The notes under the pieces are model-generated. The model was not told the origin of the DNA. It searched no databases and was given only the letters and a program-made list of their open reading frames with translations. A DNA stretch of 64,000 nt, from positions 1,054,001 to 1,118,000 of the forward strand of contig NZ_JARXXU010000001.1 in the NCBI RefSeq assembly GCF_029894165.1, in the 5' to 3' direction. The stretch comes from Aurantimicrobium minutum (GTDB lineage Bacteria; Actinomycetota; Actinomycetes; Actinomycetales; Microbacteriaceae). Below, one piece after another: positions 32,083 to 64,000 of this stretch (its first letter is position 1; each line of letters opens with the position of its first letter). The position numbers and the translations under genes are program-made.

Positions 32083-32341
32083 GTTTTCTCTCTTCTTTGA
32101 GATCGTTTCCTCCCGCCAGAGTCACACTCTGATGGATTGCACTTACTCTAGTCCTGCTGACACGGCGTGATGAAGATTGATTTCAACATTGATGTTCGTG
32201 ATTTCCCGTCTACGTCAGATCAAACCGGAGGTCGTTGTTCCTCCTTGTCATCTTCAATACTGTGTTTTTGTTGTGAATGGGTAAAGGATTGACGTGGAGA
32301 GCAGAAAGGAAGCTCTCACTTATCAATGAATGGAGGTCATT

Positions 32342-32719
32342 ATGACTTTCGGACAAGCAATAAAAAGTGGATTTCAGAACTTCACCTCATGGAAGGGCCG
32401 TGCTACTCGATCAGAGTTTTGGTACTGGACGCTCTTCGTCTGGCTCGTACAGTTGCCCTTTAGTATTTGGTACCAGTCTTCGGTGAACATCAGCGAAAGT
32501 GGTAGTTTCAACCTCTTCACTCCCGCTTACTTCGTCCTCATCCTCGTGGCTCTGGTCTTCTTTCTTCCTAGCCTCGCAATGATGATTCGTCGTCTCCATG
32601 ACACTGATCGTTCAGGCGGCTTCTATTGGATGGGACTCATCCCACTCGTGGGCTGGATCTTCATCCTCGTTTACATGCTTCAGCCAACTACACCAGGTGC
32701 TAACCGTTTCGATAGATAG
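32342..32719 (+). CDS. DUF805 membrane protein
   Basis: 125 residues. The start is ATG 32342 because GGAGGTC sits 4 nt before it; an earlier in-frame ATG (32330) overlaps that site. The DUF805 hallmarks are the N-terminal FTSWKGRATRSEFWYW (about 15-30) and MIRRLHDTDRSGGFYW (about 80-95), with three to four hydrophobic segments. The family (E. coli YhaH-like) has no established function. A terminator follows, shared with the convergent DUF2202 gene. Confidence 0.85.
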   Translation: MTFGQAIKSGFQNFTSWKGRATRSEFWYWTLFVWLVQLPFSIWYQSSVNISESGSFNLFTPAYFVLILVALVFFLPSLAMMIRRLHDTDRSGGFYWMGLIPLVGWIFILVYMLQPTTPGANRFDR

Positions 32720-32728
32720 CTCTCACGT

Positions 32729-32764
32729 CACGAATCCCCAGTGCATGTGCACTGGGGATTCGTG
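32729..32764. terminator. Terminator between DUF805 and DUF2202 genes
   Basis: A 17-bp perfect palindrome (32729-32745 with 32748-32764); the innermost pairs would open to form the loop. It lies between convergent genes and could stop both. T tracts are short. Confidence 0.7.
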
Positions 32765-32794
32765 GTTAATCTTCACCGGAGATTTCTCTCTGAG

Positions 32795-33415
32795 CTAGAG
32801 CTTTTTGCTGAAGGCCGCCAAGTGACTTTCGCTCGCACTGCGCAACTTTTCAAGCACGGAGATGATGGTCCCATCCGATGTTGAGTTGATTGCAGAGGTT
32901 AGATCAGTGATGTCTGTTTCTTCGATGAGTACGCCCACTTTGTATGCCTCGGTCTGACTGGTCATTCCCTGCGCTACGAGTTGATCGTAAAGTGCCTGCA
33001 AATCGGGGTTGGTGAACACTCCGATTTCTTGAGATCGTGGATCTTCTAGTCCGTAGCTGGTGAGCAGTCCGAGAACCATGTCTTGGTGAGTAGTTTCGCT
33101 TGCAAGGATGTTAGTGAAAGTATTTCCTCCCCATTGGGTTGAAAGGACTGTGTAGACATCATGCGCCAGTTTTTCTTCCTCAATGAGGTAGAGCAATAAG
33201 TCATCGGTAGTTGGGGCGGGTTGTTGCTGTACTACCTCAGCGGTCTGTTCGTCGATTTGTATCTTGTCTGCATCCGTGAGAATTTCTGGGGCTTGAGTGG
33301 ATGCCGAAGGAGACACCTGTGGCACTTGATTCATGCTGGCCACGCCTATAGAAATCCCGCCTGCCCCCACGAGGACTGCAATAACGCTGGCTGTGATGAT
33401 TGTTGACTTCTTCAT
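32795..33415 (-). CDS. Secreted DUF2202 protein (ferritin-like fold)
   Basis: 206 residues with an N-terminal signal or anchor (KKSTIITASVIAVLVGAGGI). The DUF2202 domain covers about 70-205 and carries the four-helix, metal-binding-type motifs EEEKLAHDVY, SETTHQDMV, VLIEETDI and SESHLAAF, i.e. two ExxH-like sites of a ferritin-like carboxylate bundle. DUF2202 proteins are extracytoplasmic and of unknown function; metal or redox chemistry is inferred from the fold. A CsoR/CstR-type operator (33449-33464) lies 33 bp upstream, and GGAAGGGGAA precedes the ATG, so the gene probably belongs to the same regulon as the thioredoxin gene. Confidence 0.85.
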   Translation of the reverse strand: MKKSTIITASVIAVLVGAGGISIGVASMNQVPQVSPSASTQAPEILTDADKIQIDEQTAEVVQQQPAPTTDDLLLYLIEEEKLAHDVYTVLSTQWGGNTFTNILASETTHQDMVLGLLTSYGLEDPRSQEIGVFTNPDLQALYDQLVAQGMTSQTEAYKVGVLIEETDITDLTSAINSTSDGTIISVLEKLRSASESHLAAFSKKL

Positions 33416-33448
33416 AATGTTCCCCTTCCGAAGGGCTATGACTTCAAG

Positions 33449-33464
33449 ATACCCCCAGGGGTAT
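33449..33464. promoter_or_regulatory. CsoR/CstR-type operator 1, upstream of the DUF2202 gene
   Basis: ATACCCCCAGGGGTAT, a G/C-tract palindrome with AT ends as bound by CsoR/RcnR/CstR-family repressors. It lies between the 3' end of the DUF4395 gene and the start of the DUF2202 gene. Its reverse complement is identical to the site at 62950-62965. No repressor gene of this family is in the window. Confidence 0.7.
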
Positions 33465-33508
33465 AGAAAACCTTATGAGTCGCCTATGTAAATCCTATGA
33501 ATCATGAA

Positions 33509-34060
33509 CTACCGGGTAGGGGTGTAGTTGCAGCTGTCGCCAGGGCAATATTGCGGCGCTGTTCGAGAAAATCGTTTCTGCAGTTCACACCCCACACAGA
33601 TGCCGAATGCGGTTTCAAGGAAAAGAACTGCCATGCAGATCCCACACATCACGAGAGCAACAGCGTTCGGTGCGTTGAATACGCCCAGTGCCAAACACGT
33701 GGGGAGTGCAATGCCAAGTCCCAATCCCCACGCAAAACGTTTCTGAGGTGCGCCGACAAATTCAGGTCGTTGATTCCGGACAATCATTCGTGCTACCGCC
33801 AGGGTGGGGGAGTATCGGGGCGTAAGGAAAAGTCTGATTACCATGTCGATCATGAAGAGCATTCCAAACGCACGAAGTGGTTGCATGATGCCCGTCGTCC
33901 ACGCAATCAAGTATGCGGAGAACCCGATGATGAACAGTATCCCCGCGCTGGCACGCACCTCGCGTTCATTAAAGACGGGAATGTCGTATCCCTCAACAAT
34001 CTCCCCGAAGGACGACCAGCGGCGCTGAGGATTCATCTGGGGTTCTGCTGTGTTGGTCAT
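33509..34060 (-). CDS. DUF4395 membrane protein
   Basis: 183 residues with about four hydrophobic segments. The DUF4395 features are FNEREVRASAGILF (near 30-43), a RFAWGLGLGIALPTC segment near 110, and a C-terminal cysteine-rich region with CGIC, FGICVGCELQK and APQYCPGDSC. In many bacteria DUF4395 genes lie beside rhodanese, thioredoxin or sulfur-oxidation genes, which fits the thioredoxin gene and CsoR/CstR-type operators here. A role in sulfur-compound handling at the membrane is therefore inferred; the biochemical function is unknown. The start is 30 bp from the divergent methyltransferase-like gene. Confidence 0.82.
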   Translation of the reverse strand: MTNTAEPQMNPQRRWSSFGEIVEGYDIPVFNEREVRASAGILFIIGFSAYLIAWTTGIMQPLRAFGMLFMIDMVIRLFLTPRYSPTLAVARMIVRNQRPEFVGAPQKRFAWGLGLGIALPTCLALGVFNAPNAVALVMCGICMAVLFLETAFGICVGCELQKRFSRTAPQYCPGDSCNYTPTR

Positions 34061-34090
34061 GATCTTCTTTCAGTGGGGCAAGATGGAGAA

Positions 34091-34558
34091 ATGAGCGATA
34101 AATCTAAAGGTTCAGTTTTAGTAGCGGCGCAGTTCGTGCTGTTGGCCTTGCTGGTTGAACTTCCTCATGGGAGCCTCTGGTTTGTTTCAGATGTGGTCGG
34201 GGCGGTTTCTGTCGCAGTGTTGATGATGGGTCTGTTTGTCGCTCTCCTGGGAATTGTGAGTTTGGGAAATTCCCTCACTGCAACGCCAGTGCCTAAACGT
34301 GAAGCTGTTTTGCGAACCACGGGAATGTACACACTGGTTCGTCATCCCATTTATTCGGGCCTTATTCTGATTGGGCTTTCGATGATGATTCTTTCTGCTT
34401 CTGTGTGGGGCATTGTTCTGTGTGCTGCACTGATCGCAGTGCTGTCCTATAAATCTCGTTTCGAAGAAAAGCTATTGCTGGCAAAATATCCTGGTTATGC
34501 GGCCTATGCTTCCCGGGTCGGGCGACTTGTTCCGTTCGTGGGGCGCTTGAGGATCTAA
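34091..34558 (+). CDS. Isoprenylcysteine carboxyl methyltransferase (ICMT)-like membrane protein
   Basis: 155 residues with about four hydrophobic segments. The ICMT/PEMT-like SAM-binding region is RHPIYSGLILIG (about 79-90) and the C-terminal motif is RFEEKLLLAKYPGYAAYASR (about 123-142). These are methyltransferase-fold membrane proteins, but bacterial members mostly have no known substrate, and prenylated cysteine is not expected here. CAAGAT ends 6 nt before the ATG, so a leaderless mRNA is possible; a nearby GGAG is too close to be an ideal ribosome binding site. The stop lies 15 bp before an operator that precedes the thioredoxin gene. Confidence 0.82.
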   Translation: MSDKSKGSVLVAAQFVLLALLVELPHGSLWFVSDVVGAVSVAVLMMGLFVALLGIVSLGNSLTATPVPKREAVLRTTGMYTLVRHPIYSGLILIGLSMMILSASVWGIVLCAALIAVLSYKSRFEEKLLLAKYPGYAAYASRVGRLVPFVGRLRI

Positions 34559-34572
34559 CGAATATTCTAAAT

Positions 34573-34588
34573 ATACCCCAGGGGGTAT
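34573..34588. promoter_or_regulatory. CsoR/CstR-type operator 2, upstream of the thioredoxin gene
   Basis: ATACCCCAGGGGGTAT, differing from sites 1 and 3 only in how the centre is placed (4 C, A, 5 G). It ends 25 bp before the thioredoxin ATG and covers the position where a -35 box would lie relative to the TAAGAT -10 element, as expected for a repressor site. Confidence 0.7.
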
Positions 34589-34601
34589 TAAAAAGTATGT
34601 A

Positions 34602-34607
34602 TAAGAT
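34602..34607 (+). promoter_or_regulatory. -10 element of the thioredoxin gene
   Basis: TAAGAT ends exactly 6 nt before the ATG and there is no ribosome binding site, suggesting a leaderless mRNA. The overlapping TATAAG (34600-34605) is an alternative. Confidence 0.45.
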
Positions 34608-34613
34608 AGTCGC

Positions 34614-34991
34614 ATGGCTTCTGTAGAACTCACCCAAGACAACTTTGACACCACCATTACCGAGAATGACATTGTTGTCGTTGACTTCTGGGCGGACTGG
34701 TGTGGCCCCTGCAAGATGTTTGCCCCCACTTTTGAGGCAGCGTCGGATAAATTTCCAGAAATCGTTTTTGGCAAAGTAGATACAGAAGCTGAACAGTCCC
34801 TTGCTGGTGCTGCGGGAATTCAGTCCATCCCTACCCTGATGGTGTTCCGTGAAAAGATTCTTCTTTTCTCCCAGGCTGGAGCACTTCCCCCGGCCGCTTT
34901 AGATGATTTGCTCGCCCAAGTCCAAGGTTTAGACATGGTCGCTGTTCACGCAGAGGTCGAGAAGCAACGTTCTGAAATGGAAGCCGAGTAG
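34614..34991 (+). CDS. Thioredoxin
   Basis: 125 residues. The fold is complete: VVVVDFWADWCGPCKMFAP holds the active-site CGPC (residues about 28-31), SIPTLMVF holds the cis-proline (about 77), and a helical tail of about 15 residues (AEVEKQRSEMEAE) extends beyond the usual end. Thioredoxins reduce protein disulfides and also persulfides. The gene is preceded by a CsoR/CstR-type operator and lacks a ribosome binding site. As it is coupled to DUF2202 and DUF4395 genes, it is more likely a stress- or sulfur-specific paralogue than the housekeeping trxA. Confidence 0.92.
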   Translation: MASVELTQDNFDTTITENDIVVVDFWADWCGPCKMFAPTFEAASDKFPEIVFGKVDTEAEQSLAGAAGIQSIPTLMVFREKILLFSQAGALPPAALDDLLAQVQGLDMVAVHAEVEKQRSEMEAE

Positions 34992-35013
34992 AAGTTTTTT
35001 CTTCTTGTTCATG

Positions 35014-35031
35014 AACACTCACAGGAGTGTT
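35014..35031 (+). terminator. Hairpin after the thioredoxin gene
   Basis: AACACTC (35014-35020) and GAGTGTT (35025-35031) form a perfect 7-bp stem with an ACAG loop, 22 nt after the stop. No T tract follows. Confidence 0.4.
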
Positions 35032-35060
35032 TGAGCCTGCTCTACTTAAACTGGTGAATT

Positions 35061-36014
35061 ATGAGCGTGTTACCGGCAGCAGTGGTGTTCAATCCTGCTT
35101 TGCCAACGCTTGACACTTTGCGAAAGATAGTCGCCGCGGCACAAAAGCGGGCAGGACTTCCGGAAACACTCTGGATTCCAGCCTCTTTTGACAACGGCGG
35201 ACTCCCGGCGTCGGTCGGAAATGTGTTGAGCAAGGTATCCGTGGTTCTTGTAGCTGGTGGTGACGGGCTTGTTCGTTCTGTCGCTGAAATCATCCAGGGC
35301 ACAGATACACCTCTCGGGATAATCCCGATGGGGACAGGGAACCTCCTGGCTAGAAACCTAGGGCTTCCTGTTGTCGATCGAACGAAATGTGTGTCAATTG
35401 CCTTTGGAAAAAACCACCGTCAAATCGATCTAGCTCGAGCAGAACTCGTCGGGGAAGAAACCACGACGCATGTGTTTTCTGTCATGGCTGGAATTGGTTT
35501 AGACGCAGACATGGCAGCCGGAGCTAGCATCTCTAAAAAGAAACGTTTCGGTTGGCTTGCCTACGTCCGACCAATAGTGCGGTCCGTTGCTCAAAATCGT
35601 CAGCAAGAAATGTCGTTCATTCTGGATGATCAACCACCAGTTATCTTCAAAGCACACACGGTAATAGTGGGTAACTGCGGGACACTTACTGCAAACCTGC
35701 TCCTGATGCCTGATGCAGTTCTGGATGATGGCTTGTTGAACATTGTCGTGTTAAACCCGAAGTATCTCTCTGGCTGGACACATATTTGGTCGCGTCTCGC
35801 AATTGGGGGAGCACTCAACCAAACGAAAGCAGGTCGACGCATTCTTGATCTCGCCCCTGAAATCAAAACATTGCGTTATGACCAACTTCGATCTGTGACC
35901 ATCACTCTGAAGGAGCGACAAACTGTCCAGTTAGATGGTGACAGTTACGGGAAGATTAATCGTATGACGGTGAGTGTTTTGCCGAAGGTGTTGACAGTTA
36001 AAGTGCCTTCCTAA
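35061..36014 (+). CDS. Diacylglycerol kinase-family lipid kinase
   Basis: 317 residues of the DAGK/YegS family. The nucleotide-binding loop is VLVAGGDGLVRSVAEII (about 54-70), followed by GIIPMGTGNLLARNLGLP (about 79-96). SVMAGIGLDADM near 140 and LDDGLLNIVVLNP near 222 are the usual second-domain motifs, and VTITLKERQTVQLDGD near 290 is the conserved closing block. It phosphorylates a diacylglycerol or related lipid in the membrane. The ATG follows GGTGAA. A secreted-protein gene follows after 43 bp. Confidence 0.9.
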   Translation: MSVLPAAVVFNPALPTLDTLRKIVAAAQKRAGLPETLWIPASFDNGGLPASVGNVLSKVSVVLVAGGDGLVRSVAEIIQGTDTPLGIIPMGTGNLLARNLGLPVVDRTKCVSIAFGKNHRQIDLARAELVGEETTTHVFSVMAGIGLDADMAAGASISKKKRFGWLAYVRPIVRSVAQNRQQEMSFILDDQPPVIFKAHTVIVGNCGTLTANLLLMPDAVLDDGLLNIVVLNPKYLSGWTHIWSRLAIGGALNQTKAGRRILDLAPEIKTLRYDQLRSVTITLKERQTVQLDGDSYGKINRMTVSVLPKVLTVKVPS

Positions 36015-62940: not shown

Positions 62941-62970
62941 TTGGTAAAGATACCCCTGGGGGTATATCAT
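62941..62970 (+). promoter_or_regulatory. Promoter of the CoA-disulfide-reductase-like gene, with the operator inside
   Basis: TTGGTA (62941-62946) and TATCAT (62965-62970) are 18 nt apart, and TATCAT ends exactly 6 nt before the ATG, indicating a leaderless mRNA. The 16-bp operator at 62950-62965 lies within the spacer and touches the -10 box, so a bound repressor would block polymerase. Confidence 0.6.
62950..62965. promoter_or_regulatory. CsoR/CstR-type operator 3, upstream of the CoA-disulfide-reductase-like gene
   Basis: ATACCCCTGGGGGTAT, the exact reverse complement of operator 1 (33449-33464) and a near match to operator 2 (34573-34588). It sits between the -35 and -10 boxes of the gene at 62977. 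Confidence 0.72.
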
Positions 62971-62976
62971 TGGGTT

Positions 62977-64000
62977 ATGGAAAGACCTCGCAAGATAGTA
63001 GTAATTGGTGGAGTTGCCGGCGGAATGTCCGCGGCAACTCGTCTTCGTCGCCTGGACGAGAAGGCAAACATCGTTGTGTTGGAGCGGAGCGGTTTCGTCT
63101 CCTACGCCAACTGTGGGCTTCCCTATCACCTGAGCGAAACCATTGAAAAGCGTTCACTTCTTATCTTGCAAAACCCTGTCTCCTTAGGTGAGCGTTTCAA
63201 CCTCGATGTTCGCGTACGACACGAGGTCGTATCGATTGACCGCGATGCGAAAACCGTCACTATCTATGACCGGGTCTGGAAAGTCACGTATGTCGAGAAA
63301 TATGACTTTCTCGTTCTTTCCCCCGGTGCTGCTGCAACCATGCCCCAGGGGCCAGACTCCAAATGGATTTTGGCTATGCGCACGGTGGAAGACATGGATA
63401 AAGCAATTGCGTGGCTTTACCCCAATCCTTCTTCAGCTATCGTTCTCGGCGGTGGATTTATCGGCTTAGAGGTAGCAGAAAACCTTCTCAAGCGGGGCAT
63501 GTCCGTAACTCTCATTAATCGCGGTCCACAAATCCTGAAACATCTTGATCCAGAAATGGCAGTTGCCTTGACGCAGCGTGTTCGCAATTCGGGAGTAGAT
63601 CTTCGTGTGGGTCGCACCGTCGAAAGTTTCACTCGAAATTCAGTCACATTGGATAACGGTGATGTCATTGAAGCAGATGTAATTTTCTCAGCTATGGGTG
63701 TACAGCCTGAGATCAATCTTGCAGTTGAAGCTGGTTTGAAGATTGGCGCCAACGGGGGAATTTGGGTCGACGACCATCAACGCACTAGTGATCCTTCCAT
63801 TTTTGCCGTGGGTGATGCTGCAGAGAAAATTGATGCCATCAGCGGCGATGAGAGGCTTGCTACCCTCGCGGGTCTGGCAAACCGACATGGTCACTCAGTG
63901 GCTAACGCCATAGCTGGAGCCACCACTATTCCTGCAACTCCTGCTCTTGGAACATCGATTCTTAGTTTCGATGGCATGGTTGCAGCCAATGTGGGCTGGA
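62977..64000 (+). CDS. CoA-disulfide/persulfide reductase-like flavoprotein, partial
   Basis: Cut by the right edge after 341 codons; no stop is reached. The FAD motif is IVVIGGVAGGMSAATRLRR (7-25), and the single redox cysteine is C46 in SYANCGLPYHL, the mark of the CoA-disulfide reductase group, which uses one active-site Cys with CoA instead of a CxxxxC pair. The NAD(P)H fold starts at AIVLGGGFIGLEVAENLL (about 150-167), and SIFAVGDAAE is near 270. Many relatives carry a C-terminal rhodanese domain and reduce CoA or glutathione persulfides; here the C-terminus is not visible. The gene has operator 3 in its promoter. Confidence 0.88.
   Translation, partial: MERPRKIVVIGGVAGGMSAATRLRRLDEKANIVVLERSGFVSYANCGLPYHLSETIEKRSLLILQNPVSLGERFNLDVRVRHEVVSIDRDAKTVTIYDRVWKVTYVEKYDFLVLSPGAAATMPQGPDSKWILAMRTVEDMDKAIAWLYPNPSSAIVLGGGFIGLEVAENLLKRGMSVTLINRGPQILKHLDPEMAVALTQRVRNSGVDLRVGRTVESFTRNSVTLDNGDVIEADVIFSAMGVQPEINLAVEAGLKIGANGGIWVDDHQRTSDPSIFAVGDAAEKIDAISGDERLATLAGLANRHGHSVANAIAGATTIPATPALGTSILSFDGMVAANVGW

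Follow-up and report, generated by a model that had tools for sequence, protein, structure and literature searches.

What do four adjoining genes in Aurantimicrobium minutum, most of them from families with no described role that we could find, respond to and do together? They lie in a stretch of 64,000 nucleotides (assembly GCF_029894165.1, contig NZ_JARXXU010000001.1, positions 1,054,001 to 1,118,000), hereafter called the window, and encode a DUF2202 protein, a variant of the DUF4395 membrane family (DUF4395v), an ICMT/PEMT-like membrane methyltransferase and a thioredoxin. A sequence-only reading of this DNA had placed the four genes here, two per strand, together with two copies of an operator, and the open reading frames (ORFs), the Pfam matches and the exact copies of ATACCCCNNGGGGTAT all agree with that layout (Table 1). 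We conclude that the four genes probably belong together as a conserved cassette within a regulon of CstR type, one that senses sulfane sulfur, and would be its membrane and exported arm. The case is built on the operators, the type of regulator, the co-conservation of the genes and the presence of the same operator beside sulfur genes in other families.

The cassette reads DUF2202 (-), operator, DUF4395v (-), 30 bp, ICMT-like gene (+), operator, thioredoxin (+), and each operator precedes a gene that comes second in a divergent pair (DUF2202 in one case, thioredoxin in the other). The Pfam matches of all four proteins exceed the gathering score. The start of the ICMT-like gene was chosen within a longer open frame, the longer ORF extending over DUF4395v.

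The operator and its predicted repressor

Within the window, ATACCCCNNGGGGTAT was found three times at up to two mismatches against 0.08 expected, and all three copies are exact. Genome-wide there are 5 exact, 3 one-mismatch and 7 two-mismatch copies, and the reversed-pattern control gave 2 matches against these 15. A general promoter and terminator scan of 32300-35100 returned no more matches than shuffled sequences did. The third window operator stands upstream of an operon that joins a fusion of CoA-disulfide reductase and rhodanese (CoADR-rhodanese) with the sole CsoR-family gene of the genome. A single chain of the fusion combines the reductase, dimerisation and rhodanese domains; its score in the equivalog model TIGR03385 is 393.3 bits, below the cut-off of 578.8.

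The product of the CsoR-family gene has a DUF156 domain (PF02583, 76.4 bits, cut-off 22.8) and, when aligned to solved chains of the family, shows C36 and C65, 29 residues apart, with Ala61 between them. The latter falls at what we take to be the position of the copper-ligand histidine, His61 of M. tuberculosis CsoR. We rejected the protein as a CsoR copper sensor, its site reading C36/A61/C65 in place of Cys-His-Cys, and also as FrmR, which is its best NCBIfam match but at 38.6 bits lies far under the cut-off of 133. In Streptomyces coelicolor, the related repressor ScCsoR has ATACCn6GGTAT as its binding sequence, and its Cys37/Cys66 pair serves to sense sulfane sulfur (PMC7533328).

The operator and this kind of repressor also go together among relatives. 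We counted as CstR-like any member with a family score below 90 bits, a threshold that we set ourselves at a visible gap. Among 79 related genomes, 31 of the 49 with a CstR-like member contain an exact operator, as against 0 of the 30 without one (Fisher 1.6e-9, for genomes that are not independent). CsoR-family proteins read C-(A/G/Q)-C in 28 of 28 loci picked for an operator or a CstR gene, and at the 30 best-scoring CsoR-family loci C-H-C was read in all 13 that the search located. Owing to the C36/A61/C65 pattern, the operator co-occurrence and the match to the ScCsoR operator, we regard the window regulator as CstR-type, with sensing of sulfane sulfur assumed by analogy. Its target promoters carry the G/C-tract palindrome as exact copies, to which binding is predicted.

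Table 1. Positions of the cassette genes, the three window operators and the genes next to the third operator
Feature	Position	Strand	Basis and remarks
DUF2202 gene, 206 aa	32795-33415	-	ORF and PF09968
Candidate CstR-type operator	33449-33464	no strand	exact ATACCCCNNGGGGTAT; 33 bp upstream of DUF2202 start
DUF4395v gene	33509-34060	-	ORF and PF14340
ICMT/PEMT-like membrane methyltransferase gene, 155 aa	34091-34558	+	PF04191, PF04140
Candidate CstR-type operator	34573-34588	no strand	exact ATACCCCNNGGGGTAT; 25 bp upstream of thioredoxin start
Thioredoxin gene	34614-34991	+	PF00085, TIGR01068, WCGPC active site
Third window operator	62950-62965	no strand	exact ATACCCCNNGGGGTAT; 11 bp upstream of the likely CoADR-rhodanese ATG at 62977
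CoADR-rhodanese fusion gene	62977-64000	+	PF07992, PF02852, PF00581; extends past the window end
CstR-type repressor gene	L008:6727-6999		just outside the window, after CoADR-rhodanese; PF02583, 76.4 bits

Conservation of the cassette and reach of the operator

Eight Aurantimicrobium genomes (G000-G007, G000 being that of the window) were compared. The intact cassette with both operators exact is found in five of them (G000, G001, G003, G005 and G006), always beside APC and aroG, and the idea in the sequence-only reading that the genes are neighbours in related genomes thus holds for five of eight congeners. DUF2202, DUF4395v and the ICMT-like protein have drifted from the window copies to 57-74% identity, whereas all 10 operators keep the consensus. 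Family or protein searches for DUF2202, the cassette-type DUF4395 and the ICMT-like protein found none of the three in G007.

The eight genomes hold 35 exact operators in total. Besides the 10 at the cassette, eight lie upstream of a secreted rhodanese gene (8 genomes), seven upstream of CoADR-rhodanese (G000-G006, the loci inspected) and eight adjoin a gene for a small, cysteine-rich peptide of about 53 aa (8 genomes, G002 and G004 by a looser motif only); the remaining two, upstream of cydAB and of an SQR-like gene, are both in G001. One-mismatch operators precede cydAB in G000 and G006, which together with the exact copy makes three of the four genomes that have cydAB. Cytochrome bd, which it encodes, reportedly favours sulfide-resistant respiration (PMC4815019). 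The names SQR-like, PDO-like and rlmN were assigned by eye or from architecture: SQR-like denotes a Pyr_redox_2 protein (46-50 bits in the NCBIfam type III SQR model, cut-off 525), PDO-like (persulfide-dioxygenase-like) a metallo-beta-lactamase plus rhodanese protein, and rlmN a radical SAM gene whose RlmN_N score is 23.4 bits against a cut-off of 24. The window genome gave five rhodanese domain matches and, in a search confined to SQR of the G001 type, no such gene.

Outside the genus, the operator recurs beside homologues of the cassette genes. For the ICMT-like protein we scanned the best 80 of 553 loci, 43 of them classed as actinobacterial by title. An operator with at most one mismatch was present in 13 of these 43 (including L224, which is Aurantimicrobium itself, and L233, which is genome G076), compared with none of the remaining 37, none of 15 background loci and none in ten shuffles. 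Neighbours in the scanned loci include CoADR-rhodanese (L233), a rhodanese-CstR-CoADR set (L234, L243), a PDO-like gene (L246) and TauE (L225, L226), and no general link emerged from the others. Twelve distant ICMT loci, viewed by eye, showed no general link to copper or sulfur; they include one TauE-ICMT pair (Salinimicrobium), and L302 and L288 contain SAM methyltransferases that are no more than suggestive. In the same scan, with Aurantimicrobium (L224) excluded, thioredoxin genes of at least 50% identity had an operator (at most one mismatch) within 60 bp upstream in eight of nine loci. Of 30 DUF2202 loci, 8 have an exact operator, five of these being Aurantimicrobium; in G378 and G260 it separates DUF2202 from a divergently oriented PDO-like gene, in G039 it stands ahead of DUF2202, and in G064 DUF2202 occurs with PDO-like, thioredoxin and CstR genes, where operators were found at two mismatches only.

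For DUF4395, the sequence-only reading had stated that the family often travels with rhodanese and thioredoxin genes. The thioredoxin part of this is borne out, as the gene directly follows a membrane-anchored thioredoxin in 24 of 30 loci (30 of 50 matches covered); a CstR or CoADR-rhodanese neighbour was seen in only one of the 30. Unlike in this usual context, DUF4395v of the cassette does not follow a membrane-anchored thioredoxin.

Several observations weigh against the regulon interpretation. The window motif scan found no operator in the 30-bp gap between DUF4395v and the ICMT-like gene; these two genes have no operator directly upstream, and so might be expressed constitutively or from promoters inside that short gap. 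In G002 and G004 the thioredoxin is kept at the cassette site without an operator and without the other three genes. No operator accompanies 30 of the 43 actinobacterial ICMT loci or 22 of the 30 DUF2202 loci (including 15 of 15 in one genus, g50), and DUF4395v was seen elsewhere only in G037, alone and operator-free. The exact operator is missing from 18 of the 49 genomes that have a CstR-like member; in other families, several operator sites could not be matched to a gene. Among the operator neighbours, rlmN, a GNAT gene and an amidohydrolase gene have no evident tie to sulfur, and the search for SQR of the G001 type gave a match in only one of the eight congeners, G001, a metagenome-assembled genome with 6% contamination.

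The cassette proteins and a possible methylation branch

The DUF2202 protein (PF09968, 124.4 bits) is a ferritin-like protein with an N-terminal hydrophobic segment by eye, and is probably exported or membrane-anchored. Seven aligned sequences share E80, E81, E107, H110, E165 and H198, an E/ExxH/E/H pattern whose residues are predicted metal ligands only. The solved DUF2202 protein MJ0754 (3q4n) aligns over most of the domain with the same E, ExxH, E, H pattern (E 3e-27), but is archaeal. A literature search with few subscription journals in its scope returned nothing on DUF2202 and nothing naming MJ0754; within the same scope DUF4395 was mentioned once each in two papers, and nothing linked isoprenylcysteine to sulfane sulfur. 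DUF4395v (PF14340, 91.5 bits) has about four transmembrane helices and seven cysteines that are invariant in six aligned sequences (C122, C139, C142, C155, C158, C172 and C177). A fold search with its weak model (pLDDT 62.5) yielded nothing at E <= 0.001.

The ICMT-like protein belongs to the ICMT/PEMT family as judged by its Pfam scores (PF04191, 36 bits; PF04140, 31.8 bits; both past the gathering cut-off) and by its intact RHPxY and EE...Y core, with R84, H85, P86, Y88, E125, E126, Y136 and Y139 invariant in ten sequences. Its AF2 model (pLDDT 83.0) matched 5v7p (E 9.4e-4) and Ma-ICMT, 4a2n (E 8.2e-3, TMq 0.71), in Foldseek. It shares fold and catalytic core with Ma-ICMT, but is shorter and has an LTATPVP stretch ahead of the core that is common to the five Aurantimicrobium sequences. 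Two more specific assignments were rejected, namely MddA (NF045656, 24.0 bits against a cut-off of 270) and the isoprenylcysteine O-methyltransferase equivalog (NF040696, 42.2 bits against 160). The thioredoxin (PF00085, 92.3 bits; TIGR01068, 103 bits against 96.8) has the WCGPC active site and, by eye, no signal peptide. The sequence-only reading had proposed one extracytoplasmic or membrane redox task for the whole set; this is unproven, given that one product has a SAM-methyltransferase fold and that a signal peptide was not seen in the thioredoxin.

DNA binding, the inducer and all four enzymatic roles are what we infer, and the response would most likely run as follows. The repressor, encoded about 30 kb away, would bind ATACCCCNNGGGGTAT at the DUF2202 and thioredoxin promoters and, by analogy with ScCsoR and CstR, would leave the DNA once persulfide or polysulfide has reacted with its two cysteines. 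CoADR-rhodanese and thioredoxin would then reduce persulfides to H2S, at the envelope the secreted rhodanese would deal with sulfane sulfur or thiols, and cytochrome bd would sustain respiration. The ICMT-like enzyme might S-methylate sulfide or another small or lipophilic thiol, a step that we hold tentatively and consider more doubtful than probable. Still less certain are the parts assigned to the other two proteins, DUF4395v perhaps acting at the membrane as a relay for sulfane sulfur or for thiol reducing power, DUF2202 perhaps binding metal or oxidising sulfur species outside the cell.

The main reason for considering S-methylation, which is not proof of it, is that two unrelated methyltransferase families occur near the same operator. 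The second is a class I S-adenosylmethionine (SAM) methyltransferase of the TehB/UbiG type, which occurs in the CstR loci of G059, G076 and G019, adjoins operators in a metagenome bin (L246) and in G048 starts 19 bp downstream of a one-mismatch operator. An operator was found in 4 of 30 scanned loci of this family, including the three best matches (G048, G059 and G076). Homologues are common, with 61 of 79 genomes having one at E 1e-12 or better, and the Aurantimicrobium copy lies away from the operator loci. MddM1, a UbiG-type methyltransferase of H2S and methanethiol (MeSH), is induced by H2S in an actinomycete (PMC12904073). In its full extent the idea would make the ICMT-like protein a new kind of membrane enzyme, controlled by a repressor that senses persulfide and S-methylating H2S, methanethiol or persulfide. 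With the class I enzyme it would form a methylation branch of the sulfane-sulfur response, through which freshwater ultramicrobacteria in which we found no SQR of the type tested would dispose of sulfide as volatile methylated sulfur, and DUF2202 and DUF4395v would be an exported thiol or metal relay; as a whole we think this rather unlikely. Loci of the TehB/UbiG type in Micrococcales are L188:4155-4814, L201:4882-5490, L246:848-1558, L223:2926-3525 and L345, those linked to an operator being L188, L201, L246 and L345.

The strongest competitor leaves the regulon in place and concerns only the ICMT-like protein, which could protect the membrane by methylating a lipid, a quinone or a protein instead of being a sulfide S-methyltransferase. 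PEMT is its top Pfam family, the isoprenylcysteine O-methyltransferase score exceeds that for MddA (both far under cut-off), and the 30 operator-free actinobacterial loci point the same way. Sulfur chemistry is favoured by TauE beside the ICMT gene (L225, L226 and L302), by CoADR-rhodanese or CstR beside it (L233, L234 and L243) and by the operator linkage of the class I enzyme. On balance we give the membrane-protecting enzyme a substantial chance, somewhat short of even.

Other stimuli, related circuits and further operator neighbours

One rival reading assumes a broader stress module for thiol electrophiles or formaldehyde, whose repressor would sense aldehydes, nitroxyl or oxidants and not persulfide. 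Such a module is suggested by the FrmR match of the repressor, by the reaction of Staphylococcus aureus CstR with nitroxyl as well (PMC5480029), by the response of Thermus thermophilus TTHA1953 to oxidation, but not to NaHS, in vitro (PMC10318464) and by the nature of thioredoxin as a general thiol reductant. We consider it unlikely in view of the FrmR score, which falls far under its cut-off, and of the operator partners, which include PDO-like, TauE, SQR-like, rhodanese and CoADR genes with no recognised formaldehyde gene among them.

Handling of copper or another metal, with the operators answering a CsoR-type copper sensor and the proteins protecting against the metal, appears more improbable still. 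It could draw on the palindrome type common to CsoR, RicR and ScCsoR (PMC7533328), on ICMT-family genes in merR-copA-cupredoxin islands of Alteromonas (PMC8478169), on a metal-efflux-like RND gene seen by eye near the ICMT gene in L288 and on a heavy-metal P-type ATPase gene with a one-mismatch operator upstream in three of the seven congeners that have it. In all three of these loci, however, a gene for the cysteine-rich peptide lies between operator and ATPase gene, and none was found in the four operator-free loci; this removes support for copper, gives rlmN a rival as operator target (see below) and leaves the cassette unaffected. The single CsoR-family protein has alanine at the ligand position, no genome without a CstR-like member has an exact operator, and the named operator neighbours are mostly sulfur genes. 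The sequence-only reading had offered sulfane sulfur or copper as the business of this locus; the first is supported by the CstR-type regulator and by an operator shared with rhodanese, PDO-like, SQR-like, TauE and CoADR genes, and the second is not supported. Mere neighbourhood by chance or hitch-hiking is hardly credible, for although the ICMT-like, DUF2202 and DUF4395v genes are also found apart in other genomes, they are co-present in five and co-absent in three of the eight congeners and have drifted beside unchanged operators.

Since ScCsoR is already known, a CstR-type circuit in an actinobacterium is not new as such; the Aurantimicrobium version is a new variant with new members. The S. 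coelicolor circuit (the csoR-like sco0620, PDO, rhodanese and a sulfite transporter) has the same DUF156 repressor with cysteines 29 apart, a 16-bp palindrome and rhodanese targets (PMC7533328). The cassette described here, in contrast, has neither PDO nor sulfite transporter, and the regulon, scattered over the genome, has CoADR-rhodanese, thioredoxin, the ICMT-like protein, DUF2202, DUF4395v, the peptide and cydAB. The repressor CstR of S. aureus likewise has a pair of cysteines (C31, C60) and a persulfide logic (PMC5480029), but controls cstA, cstB and sqr, likely as a single direct operon, whereas several loci are involved here and an SQR-like gene occurs in one of eight congeners. TTHA1953, a CsoR-family protein with Cys39/Cys68, resembles the present case in its scattered targets, among them a thioredoxin, an uncharacterised membrane protein and a methyltransferase, and differs in its operator, TACNNTACNNNNGTANNGTA, and in its Sox oxidation genes (PMC10318464). 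Its methyltransferase target, TTHA1729 (identified as such by elimination), rose only about 1.5-fold (PMC10318464). Among known sulfur methyltransferases, MddA, MddM1 and MddM2 are SAM-dependent and act on H2S or MeSH; MddA is an integral membrane protein, mddM1 and mddM2 are H2S-induced, and MddM1 and MddM2, of the UbiG and UbiE families, differ in fold from the ICMT-like protein (PMC12904073).

The regulon interpretation ties three families for which we found no described role (DUF2202, this branch of DUF4395 and the short ICMT-like branch) to one testable stimulus; gene inactivation has been published for A. photophilum (PMC11577799). On this view, the persulfide regulons of freshwater actinobacteria would contain methyltransferases as well as a tiny, cysteine-rich peptide that falls in no Pfam or NCBIfam family. 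If true, this would bear on sulfide handling in these bacteria and on the origin of methylated sulfur in lakes. By term search, an RNA-seq paper on freshwater actinobacteria (PMC8591293) mentions sulfur three times and does not mention thioredoxin, rhodanese, sulfide or ferritin.

The cysteine-rich peptide has 38-60 aa and the motif CxxCGKxTWxGCGxH...C, and gave no Pfam match above cut-off and no NCBIfam match. Of 78 places with an exact operator that were examined with a strict pattern, 12 have the peptide start no more than 120 bp away, and the looser motif adds two congeners; the operator-linked peptide is thus present in all eight congeners and in six other genomes (L007:4853-5014; L144, L149, L152, L156, L159, L161, L164; L167, L170, L183, L186, L190, L200), further peptide loci being L009:5126-5242, L332 and L333. 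Copies also occur in CstR loci without a nearby operator. The peptide may belong to the core of these regulons. On the other side of its operator lies rlmN in seven genomes, starting 21 bp from the operator in all seven congeners other than that of the window (L144, L149, L152, L156, L159, L161 and L164). In the window genome two inserted genes, for a 276-aa protein without a Pfam match and a DUF6036/AbiEii-like nucleotidyltransferase, separate operator and rlmN (L007:5043-7771). We dropped the notion that this fifth exact operator had been displaced from rlmN when the peptide gene was found directly adjoining it.

Other genes near operators include an MFS transporter gene with a one-mismatch operator upstream in the window genome (L010:5059-6339), a TsoY-family membrane protein gene directly after an exact operator in G049 (NF047644, 412 bits; L178:2848-4074) and, adjoining an exact operator in G074, a gene for a small protein with a GCPVCNK stretch and no Pfam match (L198:3521-4000). 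In G037 an Amidohydro_3 protein is encoded between the operator and an ICMT-like gene on one strand (L172:3547-5238), a place that an acyl-CoA oxidase holds in L240. At the DUF2202 edge of the cassette, the window genome has a gene for a DUF805 membrane protein (32330-32719) that is not in the ORF lists of the four other carriers, and in G005 two transposase-like ORFs, recognised by eye, lie just past the thioredoxin gene (L051:4257-5593).

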